Shown: in pieces, positions 2,663-10,703 of the stretch | How the letters are laid out: each line of letters starts with the position of its first letter | Numbering within the stretch: position 1 is the first letter of the stretch | IMG/VR virus record: IMGVR_UViG_3300032086_000388 | Location: 1 to 21,413 of that record | From: a virus | Length of the DNA: 21,413 bases | Reading direction: 5' to 3' (one strand) | Position numbers and translations under genes: made by a program | The notes under the pieces: generated by a model | The model's input: only the letters and a program-made list of their open reading frames with translations | Databases searched by the model: none | Told to the model about the DNA's origin: nothing

Positions 2663-4475
2663 TGATATTTTAGACGAAACAGTACGCCACGCGCATTATT
2701 TAGAGCGTCACAAGGCTTCTGTTATAAAAAAGCTTGTTGCACTTATGAGCAACAGCAACGATGAAATGTACAGTATGATGTACAAGCAACGTATTGAAAA
2801 GCTGAAACGTAGGGATTTAGACAAGCTTTTAAGGCGCATAAAAGTACATATTAAACAGGGTTATGAACCCGTTATAGAAACCCTAGATGCTGAAATACGC
2901 GATTTGTCAGCACACGAAACACGCTGGCAAAAGAAAATAATAGATGGATTAGTGCCTGTTGAATTAGATTGGGAAGCACCATCAGGCGAACAGATATACG
3001 CAGCAGCTAAAGCAAGACCGTTTGAAGGTTTATTTCTGCAAGATTGGTATAATGGCCTAAGTGATGGGCATTTTAGGCGTGTAAAGCAAGCAGTAATGCA
3101 GGGGTATGTCGAAGGCCAAACGACAGATGAAATAGTGCAGCAAATGCAGCAATTCACGCAAGGCAGAAGCAGACGCGCAGCAGAAACAGCAGCTAGAACG
3201 GCGTTAACGCACACAAGCAATGTTGCAAGAAATGAAAGCTACCGTAGAAATAGGCGTGTTATACGCGCTGTAGAATGGGTTGCTACCCTTGATGGGCGCA
3301 CTACAGCAGTTTGCAGGGCAAGAGATGGCAAAACATGGCCTGTTGATGAAGGCCCAAGACCACCAGCACATCCAGCGTGTAGGTCAACAACAATACCAGT
3401 TGTTAAATCTTTGCGTGAATTAGGAATAAAAGCAGATACAAAAGACATTAAAACAACCCGTGCATCTATGAACGGTCAAGTTTCGTCGGAATTAAACTAT
3501 GATAGATGGTTAAGAAAACAGCCCAAAGCATTTCAAGAAGATGTATTAGGAAGGGAAAAAGCCAAATTATTTCGTGCTGGCTTAAAAATGGATAGATTTG
3601 TTGATGAAGGTGGGCGCGAATTTACATTAAAAGAAATAGAAAAACGTGAAAAAGCTATCTGGTCACAAGTTTATGGCAAGCCAAAGCCAACCCAAAAACA
3701 GAAAGCGCAGCCACAGCCGCAACCAGACCCAGCTTTTGATATTAGAAATAATATAGATTTAGGTAAAATGGGTGTGTTAACGCAAAAACGTGGCAAACAA
3801 AAACCTACTTTTACAATAGATCAACTAAATGAAAAATTTAGAGCGCAATTAAGCGATCAGGGCGCAAACATTGTTAACAAGCTGTCTAAACCGCGTGAGA
3901 TAGTGATAGGTCAAGATGCAGGCGTGTATTATGCAAGTGCTGAACGCTTAGAAAGTGGTTATCAAAAAAATACAATTACGCATGAATATGGGCATCATGT
4001 AGACCACGTAATTAGAAATACAGATGGTGAAAATAGATATTTTTGGTCGGTAAAAGGTCTAAAAAGTGAGTGGGAAAAAGACCGCGCTAATTTAGGTGTT
4101 TATAGAAAAGCACGTGCGGAAAAAGACCGTAAATTAAGAGAAATAAAAGATGAATTGTTTGTAACAGAAGAAGTAACTACTAAAACAAGAAATGGTTTTG
4201 AGTTTACACGAAAACGTAACGTGCCTAAATTTGATGGCGCAAACAGTTTATCAGATATTGTTGATAGTTTTGTTAGTGGTCAATTTCGTAAAAATTATTA
4301 CGTTTATGGGCATACGCCTGCGTATTGGAAAAACAAAGACAACGGCGCAGTAGAAAGCTTTGCCAATATGTTTGCTATACAAAATAGCCCAGAAGCAAAA
4401 GCATGGGCGCAAAAAAATATCCCTAATTTGTGGGCAAAATTTACTGCTAAAATGAATGAGATAGAAAATGGATGA
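2649..4475 (+). CDS. MuF/SPP1 gp7-like minor head protein with C-terminal HExxH metallopeptidase-like domain
   Basis: This is a head morphogenesis protein that binds the portal and, in SPP1-like phages, sits inside the head. Residues about 1-140 are helical and charged. The MuF core follows: helix ETAARTALTHTSNVARNESY, then VEWVATLDGRTTAVCRARDG (208-227) and PPAHPACRS (238-246), with D215, R217, C222, H241 and C244 at the conserved positions. At 608 aa it is far longer than a plain MuF protein. A Pro/Gln linker (about residues 347-361) leads to a second domain with a zinc-protease signature THEYGHHVDH (H445, E446, H449) and, later, VYGHT (Y553) and VESFANMFA (E569). This order (HExxH, Tyr-Gly, E-x-FA-x-x-F) resembles the anthrax lethal factor catalytic domain. 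The domain could be a virion-delivered effector or a head maturation protease; no separate prohead protease gene is present nearby. MuF is confident; the protease function is inferred. Confidence 0.88.
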   Translation: MALIDDILDETVRHAHYLERHKASVIKKLVALMSNSNDEMYSMMYKQRIEKLKRRDLDKLLRRIKVHIKQGYEPVIETLDAEIRDLSAHETRWQKKIIDGLVPVELDWEAPSGEQIYAAAKARPFEGLFLQDWYNGLSDGHFRRVKQAVMQGYVEGQTTDEIVQQMQQFTQGRSRRAAETAARTALTHTSNVARNESYRRNRRVIRAVEWVATLDGRTTAVCRARDGKTWPVDEGPRPPAHPACRSTTIPVVKSLRELGIKADTKDIKTTRASMNGQVSSELNYDRWLRKQPKAFQEDVLGREKAKLFRAGLKMDRFVDEGGREFTLKEIEKREKAIWSQVYGKPKPTQKQKAQPQPQPDPAFDIRNNIDLGKMGVLTQKRGKQKPTFTIDQLNEKFRAQLSDQGANIVNKLSKPREIVIGQDAGVYYASAERLESGYQKNTITHEYGHHVDHVIRNTDGENRYFWSVKGLKSEWEKDRANLGVYRKARAEKDRKLREIKDELFVTEEVTTKTRNGFEFTRKRNVPKFDGANSLSDIVDSFVSGQFRKNYYVYGHTPAYWKNKDNGAVESFANMFAIQNSPEAKAWAQKNIPNLWAKFTAKMNEIENG

Positions 4476-9051: not shown

Positions 9052-9999
9052 ATGGTTGGCATTGCATCAAATCAGCTTAGATCAGCTTTTGTGGCTGAAA
9101 CTACAGCAAACACAACACCATCAACACCATCATTTACAAATAGTGATGTACCAATAAACATGACCGCAACACCTAACATTATTGAACACCGTTCATTAGC
9201 TGGTAAAGGTGAAGCAGTCGAAACGTCTATTGGCGGTATAGATGTATCTGGCACAATGTCAGGTACGCTAGTGTACGGCGCTTATGACGATATGTTAGAA
9301 AGCCTTTTGCAAGGTACATGGGCAACTAATGTGCTAAAAAATGCTAAAACAACGCAAACATTTACTGTAGAAAACGCAATTGCAGCAGGCGATGGCGGCA
9401 CAAATACAATGATGCGCTATACAGGTGTAGAAGTTTCTGGCGGTTCAATAACTCTGACTTCTAACGCAGATATTACATTTGCATTTGATCTATTAGGTAT
9501 GGGGTCAGCAGATACGACAACCAGCGCAATTTCTGGCGCTACCTATACGGATCAATCGCAAAGAACACCGTTATCTAGTGGTTTAGATGTTGGCACAATC
9601 GCAATGGCAGGTTACACGCTAGACGCGTTTGAAAGTGCAACAATTAATTTTACTTACGAAGGTCGTGAAGCGCAGAATAAATTAGGTTCTGATTATGCTA
9701 AAGGCGGTATTACAAAAGGCGCGTTATTAGCAGAAATTACAGCTAGGGTGTATGTCGATAGCAACTTTGCATCTATGTACAACGCAGCGCGTGATAATAA
9801 TCACACCCTTTTTGCTACTACTTTCCCTTTAGGGTCGGTGTCTGGTTCTAAATACACGCTAGTTTTCCCTAAGTGCAAATTCACAACATCTAATTTAGAT
9901 TTTACGGGAACAGCAGCAATGCAAGACGTAACAATACGCGCAATGTATGACGAAGCAACTGAAGATGCTTCAGTTAAACTAACAAGGGCAGTAAGCTAA
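9052..9999 (+). CDS. Major tail tube protein
   Basis: The 315-aa product forms the hollow hexameric tube of the tail. The N-terminus MVGIASNQLRSAFVAETTAN, the strand-turn HRSLAGKGEAVETSIGGIDV and SGTMSGTLVYGAYDDMLESL are typical of the Phage_tube_2-type tail tube (major tail subunit) family, as is the middle motif TYEGREAQNKLGS. The C-terminal part (FTTSNLDFTGTAAMQDVTIR) repeats a beta-sandwich pattern common in these proteins. The gene has a consensus SD and a short non-coding gap before it, unlike its neighbours, in line with separate strong translation. The stop TAA overlaps the next ATG. Confidence 0.88.
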   Translation: MVGIASNQLRSAFVAETTANTTPSTPSFTNSDVPINMTATPNIIEHRSLAGKGEAVETSIGGIDVSGTMSGTLVYGAYDDMLESLLQGTWATNVLKNAKTTQTFTVENAIAAGDGGTNTMMRYTGVEVSGGSITLTSNADITFAFDLLGMGSADTTTSAISGATYTDQSQRTPLSSGLDVGTIAMAGYTLDAFESATINFTYEGREAQNKLGSDYAKGGITKGALLAEITARVYVDSNFASMYNAARDNNHTLFATTFPLGSVSGSKYTLVFPKCKFTTSNLDFTGTAAMQDVTIRAMYDEATEDASVKLTRAVS

Positions 10000-10157
10000 T
10001 GTTTGTTGTGCAATCTAAATTTTCAGCAGTAGTTGATGATAAAGAAGTTACTTACCGTAAAGGCGATAAAGTAAACGAAGAAGTAGCTAAAAAACTGGGT
10101 TTAGCCGACAAGCCCAATTTAGCTATTAGCGATAAAAGTATACCGACAGAAGAATAA
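9999..10157 (+). CDS. Small charged protein between tail tube and chaperone (52 aa), unknown function
   Basis: ATG at 9999 overlaps the tail tube stop (TAATG); TAA is at 10155-10157. The product begins MFVVQSKFSAVVDDKEVTYR and ends LAISDKSIPTEE. It reads as a small strand-rich N-terminal part followed by a helix (GDKVNEEVAKKLGL) and a disordered acidic tail. I do not recognise a family; short proteins are found at this place in other siphophages. Its last codons contain ACCGACA (10142-10148), which can pair with TGTCGGT in the RNA element just downstream, so its translation may influence expression of the chaperone gene. Confidence 0.7.
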   Translation: MFVVQSKFSAVVDDKEVTYRKGDKVNEEVAKKLGLADKPNLAISDKSIPTEE

Positions 10158-10169
10158 GTGCAGCACTTA

Positions 10170-10218
10170 GGGGGGATATTTCTTTGTCGGTAAGTATCCC
10201 CCCACTTAACCGACAAAG
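10170..10218 (+). promoter_or_regulatory. RNA pseudoknot or two-state switch covering the chaperone ribosome binding site
   Basis: Two interlocked stems can be read. Stem A pairs 10170-10181 (GGGGGGATATTT) with 10192-10203 (AAGTATCCCCCC), 12 bp with one G-U. Its 10-base loop, CTTTGTCGGT (10182-10191), is perfectly complementary to ACCGACAAAG (10209-10218). The second pairing (stem B) can also extend by AAGT (10192-10195) with ACTT (10204-10207), with one bulged A (10208), which would break stem A. So the element is either an H-type pseudoknot or two competing hairpins. Stem B takes up most of the SD region AAAGGA (10215-10220) of the gene starting at 10227. There is no U-tract after either stem, so it is unlikely to be an intrinsic terminator. 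It probably controls translation of the tail assembly chaperone. Confidence 0.75.
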
Positions 10219-10226
10219 GAAAACCG

Positions 10227-10703
10227 ATGCTTAAATTAACGCAACCAAATATGTCTGATCAAATATTTCGTAGGGAATTTTCATCAGAACTAGATTTTCT
10301 ATCAGGCGAAACAACATTTATAGAAATTAAATGTCGTGCTGGTGGATGGTTAAATCACAAATTAATTAAATTACGTGATGACATAGAATTAAATAGACAA
10401 ATACAAACTATGCAAGCAGCAGAGTTTATAAAAGATAGAGAAAAGTTTGCTAGAAAAGCCGCTGAAAATACAAAAACTATAGGTAAAATGCAATTTGGCG
10501 CGTTGTTTGACGCGTGTGTTATTCATTGGAATACTAATATTAAAAATGATGGCAAAAACATGGATTGTGTAAAAAGCACCTTTATGGCGTTAGCAGATGT
10601 TAGGATAGAAGAAATTTCTAATTATTTCGTAGATTTTGCGAAATATGTAGATGATTTAGCAAATTTTATAACAGAAGCAGATAAGGAAACGGAAAAAAAC
10701 TAA
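10227..10703 (+). CDS. Tail assembly chaperone, short form (gpG-like)
   Basis: The 158-aa product corresponds to gpG of lambda: a cytoplasmic chaperone that coats the tape measure protein and recruits tube subunits. It has a beta-rich N-terminus (FRREFSSELDFLSGETTFIE IKCRAGG) and a long helical part (LNRQIQTMQAAEFIKDREKF and following). Evidence is chiefly position between tail tube and tape measure, plus the frameshift: the last codons GAA AAA AAC TAA contain the heptamer A AAA AAC (10694-10700) and the -1 frame stays open into an overlapping ORF. The ribosome site AAAGGA (10215-10220) lies in a strong RNA structure. ATG at 10227 is the first start after that structure. Confidence 0.85.
   Translation: MLKLTQPNMSDQIFRREFSSELDFLSGETTFIEIKCRAGGWLNHKLIKLRDDIELNRQIQTMQAAEFIKDREKFARKAAENTKTIGKMQFGALFDACVIHWNTNIKNDGKNMDCVKSTFMALADVRIEEISNYFVDFAKYVDDLANFITEADKETEKN

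Follow-up and report, generated by a model that had tools for sequence, protein, structure and literature searches.

Compensatory changes in both of its stems, in the second stem between lineages, show that an H-type RNA pseudoknot stands between the tail tube gene and the tail assembly chaperone gene of alphaproteobacterial phages. The element probably works in cis as a switch that gates the initiation of chaperone translation, its single loop choosing among several complementary segments. It was studied in a viral DNA stretch of 21,413 nucleotides (hereafter the window; IMG/VR record IMGVR_UViG_3300032086_000388) and in relatives of that virus.

The pseudoknot and its covariation

Stem S1 of the window element (Table 1) is a 12-pair helix that includes one U-G pair, and stem S2 consists of 10 Watson-Crick pairs between the S1 loop and a downstream complement, the A copy. 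The motif ACCGACA occurs at 10142 and again at 10209. An earlier, sequence-only reading of the window had picked out interlocking segments over the chaperone start, and a sequence check placed every one of them exactly; the P0 palindrome and the C copy had escaped it.

Table 1. Features of the window around the tube-chaperone junction
Feature	Position	Strand	Evidence or remark
Tail tube protein gene on the upstream side (315 aa)	9052..9999	+	PHROG 290, 4e-38; Pfam Phage_tube_2 PF18906, 1.8e-20
52-aa ORF between tube and pseudoknot	9999..10157	+	Protein kept in window group, absent from CRP-6-type phages
U copy ACCGACA, upstream loop complement	10142..10148	+	Enriched over shuffles; best with own loop
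P0 palindrome/hairpin TAAGTGCAGCACTTA, adjoining the 5′ side of S1 and sharing bases with the 52-aa ORF stop codon	10155..10169	+	
S1 5′ arm GGGGGGATATTT	10170..10181	+	Sequence check; covariation
Loop CTTTGTCGGT, core GTCGGT (S2 5′ strand)	10182..10191	+	Core kept in window group
S1 3′ arm AAGTATCCCCCC	10192..10203	+	Sequence check; covariation
Loop 3 (ACTTA), joining S1 to the A copy	10204..10208	+	
A copy ACCGACAAAG (S2 3′ strand), running into the Shine-Dalgarno (SD)	10209..10218	+	
SD AAAGGA of the chaperone gene	10215..10220	+	
C copy ACCGAT, a complement of the loop in the SD-AUG spacer, reaching into the start codon	10223..10228	+	
Tail assembly chaperone gene (G-type), 158 aa	10227..10703	+	Lies between tube and tape measure

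A purpose-written finder of H-type pseudoknots, which sums stacking energies with no loop penalties, gave −42.65 kcal/mol for the best pseudoknot of the region, against −24.05 for the best of 1000 dinucleotide shuffles. The next-best site on the plus strand of the window reached −26.8, and an ordinary fold of the region had a z-score of −2.8. S1 and S2 are real complementarities, since their energies lie so far outside those of the shuffles and the runner-up and plain-fold scores point the same way; the earlier judgement that such complementarity would very rarely arise by chance thus holds, none of the 1000 shuffles coming near. Both stems can hardly form at full length at once in the window (12 bp and 10 bp), because loop 3 has only 5 nt with which to span the 12 bp of S1. 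Among relatives, S1 varies from 8 to 13 bp and the third loop from 3 to 11 nt. An extension of S2 by four pairs had also been proposed; it exists in the window (AAGT/ACTT, with A10208 bulged) but is not kept in relatives.

S1 covaries strongly among relatives. Across 46 distinct pairs of S1 arms, the native combinations average −25.1 kcal/mol, compared with −12.3 for arms swapped between sequences. Mapped on tube-protein trees, compensatory double changes in S1 fall on 16 branches in the window group and 37 in the CRP-6 group, where a slid-partner control finds 0–1 and 3–4, respectively. The helices in this parsimony count were located by complementarity, so that the absence of mispairs is built in and the evidence rests in the double changes. 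MAFFT alignments (A1–A3) mis-register stems of unequal length, and a pair counter was therefore run only on equal-length helices (A4). The 12 CRP-6-type helices of equal length were 100% paired, with 8 of 12 pairs changed on both sides; the score was 0.64 for native helices, 0.28 for shuffled ones (0 of 500 as high) and 0.12–0.23 for slid ones.

S2 varies little within a lineage, and between lineages loop and partner change together. Four loop types, with the core GTCGGT in the window group and GTCGGGT, RTCGGGG and GCTGGG elsewhere, each pair best with the A copy of their own lineage, which carries the matching partner. The arms that the sequence-only reading had offered as a pseudoknot or as alternative pairings are thus both conserved and covarying in relatives, which supports it strongly.

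Gene context and distribution

The 52-aa ORF matched no family in PHROG and Pfam searches. In the window group, 63–69 nt separate the stop codon of this small ORF from the chaperone AUG. At the far end of the chaperone ORF, a slippery GGAAAAAAAC at 10691–10700 opens a −1 frame that runs on to 11011 and whose product of 100-odd aa matches tail chaperone PHROGs 3817/8233; this is the usual G/GT frameshift, and an A6–7C slippery run was present in all seven relatives checked. Several named-phage records annotate the downstream gene as a tail assembly or pre-tape-measure chaperone.

Relatives were reached through the tube protein because blastn of the region matched no named phage. The tube search gave 51 viral contigs, 41 of them with a readable tube-chaperone junction, and the element was present in 40. 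In the exception (L049; 54% tube identity), the chaperone begins within the upstream small ORF. The common layout is P0, S1, a loop with a GUCGG-type core, the A copy, the SD and the start codon. A DNA pattern scan found this layout again between tube and chaperone in L111 and L128/L187, which are unrelated to the window at the DNA level and carry an ORF of 100–106 aa in place of the 52-aa ORF. In L039, a small ORF runs straight into the chaperone after position 2314 and the whole element is gone, either by natural deletion or as an assembly artefact.

S1 and the loop GUCGGGU were also found directly after the tube stop in all 77 readable CRP-6-type contigs and in Roseobacter phage CRP-6 itself, with no small ORF between tube and element. 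The partner ACCCGA(C/T) lies at most 12 nt away, except in L237, L257 and L265, where inserts or extra spacing displace the A copy. In L237, a short cysteine-rich ORF (MKHCTACDKKLPLTNFHKK...) begins right after S1, from about position 3090, in place of the A copy; it resembles the start of an HNH-type endonuclease, and may be a homing insertion into the element. The CRP-6 genome encodes a tail tube, chaperone-position genes and a tape measure, although the phage is described as short-tailed (PMC6918029). A distinct loop and partner, GCUGGG/CCCAGC, occur in L183.

Thirteen further named phages, making 14 with CRP-6, carry the element, and 0 of 100–200 shuffles equalled any native one. They infect Caulobacter (Ccr34/phiCbK, CcrRogue, CcrPW and CcrBL9), Brevundimonas (Gurke, Papperlapapp and Bajun), Erythrobacter (L02), Ruegeria (RpAliso), Roseobacter (DSS3P8), Mesorhizobium (Cp1R7A-A1), Sphingobium (Lacusarx) and Citromicrobium (RXM). 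Lacusarx (2264–2389 of contig L311) and RXM (2198–2308 of L312) have a small annotated ORF that runs from the tube stop and precedes the element. The large phages L281, L288, L289, L290, L286, L292, L293 and L310 have a second strong hairpin of varying sequence (e.g. GTCACGATTCCCCCGAATCGTGAC, GTCACGTTTCCCCCGAAACGTGAC) just past the tube stop, 5′ of the U copy. The A copy adjoins or enters the ribosome-binding region in the window, L111/L187, L183 and phiCbK; in many CRP-6-type phages, Gurke and Papperlapapp it lies further off, and distances of 20–100 nt from the SD occur.

At 14 tube-chaperone junctions of phages with other hosts or from other groups, the element is absent. The tube-chaperone gap is too short in PaMx11, Mallos, VPv64, PMBT14, 033B, R31B, Bhz20, SLUR76 and Alteromonas R9Y1, and a plain hairpin stands at the junction of Microcystis phage Mwe-JY26. 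Bradyrhizobium prophage ppBdUSDA122-1 also lacks the element. In the beta- and gamma-phages Pm86, DC31 and P26059A, an intrinsic terminator occupies the junction instead. In Limnohabitans phage DC31 (L283) and Curvibacter phage P26059A (L189), the terminator precedes a site resembling a promoter (TTGACA-17-TAAAAT in P26059A), which places the chaperone in a separate transcription unit. Among 115 sampled alphaproteobacterial genomes, a small and non-exhaustive check of gene transfer agents and prophages with Phage_TAC_11 (PF11836) showed the element at 0 of 15 loci. Among the phages of known host in this sample, which is small and tied by phylogeny, the element is apparently restricted to those of alphaproteobacteria, and not all of them have it.

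Two kinds of match were set aside. The exact pattern TGTCGGT..ACCGACAAAGGA has 33 matches in bacterial genomes, taken as chance on account of weak or misplaced stems, and a match in rumen contigs L068 and L142, whose stem has 4 bp and whose neighbouring genes are unrelated, was likewise judged chance.

Rival partners of the loop and control of the chaperone

In addition to the A copy, the loop has complements on either side. At a threshold of at least six Watson-Crick pairs, the upstream U copy is present in 91% of window-group sequences (shuffle null 4%) and in all nine Caulobacter-type and other large alpha-phage sequences (null 24%), whereas just 8% of the CRP-6 group have it. U matches its own loop better than it does other loops (7.3 for native, 6.0 for swapped and 5.0 for shuffled combinations). 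This third segment of the earlier reading is thus conserved, and in several lineages it co-varies with the loop: the pairs are AUCGGGG/CCCCGAU in phiCbK and Gurke and GUCGGGG/CCCCGAC in CcrPW and Bajun, and CcrBL9 has ten loop-U pairs. U lies within the small ORF in the window group, partly in A-D-K-P codons, and coding constraint may contribute to its conservation there. The C copy, in the spacer between SD and AUG, occurs with at least five pairs in 100% of CRP-6-type sequences (null 23%), 78% of the window group (null 16%) and about half of the other sequences; L010, L026, L033, L043, L111, L183, CcrBL9, Papperlapapp and others lack it. Each well-sampled lineage has A and at least one rival copy, and L183, a single sequence, has no clear rival.

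A loop with several partners that can hold one at a time suggests a switch on chaperone initiation, the reading we consider the most probable. Initiation is also pointed to as the target by an A copy in or against the SD (window, L111, L183 and phiCbK) and by a C copy in the SD-AUG spacer. Pairing of the loop to C, or to an A copy that enters the SD as in the window, would close the initiation region, while pairing to U, or to an A copy clear of the SD, would leave it open. The net effect would be a chaperone stepped down and gated, or timed, relative to the abundant tube protein. Candidate triggers are ribosome passage, an RNA-binding protein and the order of folding during transcription. As to sign, activation would be expected of a pseudoknot like that of repZ (PMC8383071), and repression of one lying over the SD. 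The terminators at the tube-chaperone junction of other phages are consistent with an expression boundary there. Against this switch stand the A copies that are not beside the SD and the fact that neither U nor C, nor a leader ORF, is universal.

The sequence-only reading had ribosomes that finish the 52-aa ORF mask U and so change the fold. This may fit the window group but finds no support as a general mechanism, because CRP-6-type phages are without that ORF and mostly without U, and because in the large Caulobacter and Brevundimonas phages U falls within neither the tube gene nor the chaperone gene as annotated. At most, masking by ribosomes would operate in the window group, where U is translated.

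An unlikely alternative to the initiation switch is that P0 and the pseudoknot serve mRNA stability or processing, blocking 3′–5′ exonucleases or marking a cleavage site between tube and chaperone messages, with any effect on the chaperone secondary. The element always follows directly on the tube region, whichever small ORF intervenes, S1 is GC-rich and very stable, about 100 nt lie between the element and the chaperone AUG in Gurke and Papperlapapp, and the large phages have those extra strong hairpins after the tube stop. Such a role nevertheless leaves the SD-AUG C copies of the CRP-6-type sequences unexplained, as it does the kept U copy and an S2 that abuts the SD in most lineages. No intrinsic terminator, in the form of a GC hairpin with a T-run, was found at window positions 9900–10400.

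Slightly less likely still is an autoregulatory operator of the T4 gene 32 kind, where a phage or host protein would bind the pseudoknot and repress the chaperone. A conserved loop core between variable stems favours it, and restriction to alphaproteobacterial phages in this sample would fit a host factor. The core itself (GUCGGU, GUCGGGU, AUCGGGG or GCUGGG), however, varies in step with its partner, a pattern to be expected from pairing and not from a fixed protein site.

Of 48 distinct sequences, a Watson-Crick search found P0 in 47, 0–3 nt 5′ of S1, in all lineages and with varying sequence; that of Cp1R7A-A1 is seen only when G-U pairs are allowed. Most copies are exact palindromes without a loop, centred on AGCT, GCGC, ACGT, TGCA, GGCC, CTAG or CCGG, and G-U pairs make up 4% of P0 pairs against 16% in S1 (p = 1e-5). 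P0 may act as a hairpin, an RNA dimer or a DNA site. Its loopless symmetry and few G-U pairs would suit a DNA-level signal, with P0 a protein-binding or nuclease site and the remainder a by-product, yet we regard this as very improbable: S1 and S2 abound in G-U pairs and in changes on one side of a pair, as is typical of RNA, and P0 takes the form CCC-GCAA-GGG, a GNRA-type hairpin, in one clade and has a U-G centre in some others. A recoding signal for readthrough or frameshifting from the upstream ORF into the chaperone can be practically dismissed: the stop codon does lie about 13 nt ahead of the pseudoknot in the window group, but the small ORF stands in frame 0, 1 or 2 relative to the chaperone in different relatives, which refutes a fusion product, the 0 frame of the window meets a second stop (TAG) four codons on, and in other lineages the element is far from the stop.

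Known RNA switches and phage tail biology

No Rfam 15 family matched the window at its gathering score, the best being Poribacteria-1 with 18.7 bits where 74.2 are needed. Literature searches on pseudoknots together with the tail tube, major tail protein, tail chaperone or phiCbK returned recoding papers or nothing. A 2017 survey reportedly lists 224 candidate RNAs. We rate the element as an unlisted, widespread cis-regulatory pseudoknot, its novelty resting on the Rfam and literature searches.

Its closest functional analogue may be the repZ switch of ColIb-P9/IncI plasmids. As summarized in the part of PMC8383071 that cites Asano and Mizobuchi (1998), the repZ loop pairs just upstream of the ribosome-binding site and competition for the loop decides translation. 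In the window, L111/L187, L183 and phiCbK, the loop of the phage element likewise pairs just upstream of a ribosome-binding site, and the window group has a short leader ORF; such an ORF is also found in L111/L187 and annotated in Lacusarx and RXM, and there is none in CRP-6-type phages. The competitor for repZ, in that summary, is an antisense RNA and its pseudoknot activates, whereas the competitors proposed here are copies in cis.

In placement, the element recalls the leader pseudoknot of T4 gene 32, perhaps the sole viral example in translational autoregulation according to a 2010 review (PMC3014915). Both are phage mRNA pseudoknots 5′ of a start codon. The T4 pseudoknot, in contrast, belongs to a different phage group and is bound by the single-stranded-DNA-binding protein, 67 nt upstream, and PMC3014915 describes no extra loop complements or palindrome. 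Recoding pseudoknots, including those of −1 frameshifting in tail chaperones, share the H-type fold near a stop codon and the same nearby gene family, but the frame relation here is not conserved and the chaperone frameshift site is at the other end of the gene. The terminators of Pm86, DC31 and P26059A put a strong hairpin at the corresponding gene boundary; the window has a conserved pseudoknot partner instead of a U-tract. The element would thus work most like the repZ switch and is placed like the gene 32 operator. We file it with neither, since a role for antisense RNA, for the leader or for protein binding is not established as general.

Restriction to alphaproteobacterial phages in this sample suggests a host-specific partner. 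It is possible, and we propose it tentatively, that the element belongs to a new class of RNA switch, acting in cis in phages, in which one conserved loop chooses U, A or C and so gates chaperone synthesis, in alphaproteobacterial phages from ∼45 kb to more than 350 kb and perhaps with a host-specific factor. Tail morphogenesis calls for hundreds of tube proteins and few chaperones. To our knowledge, little is known of how siphophages control this ratio beyond the G/GT frameshift. With the element in the well-studied model phiCbK and in abundant marine phages, the question of the ratio becomes directly testable. The element would also bring a widespread example to the control of translation by phage mRNA pseudoknots, of which very few cases are listed.
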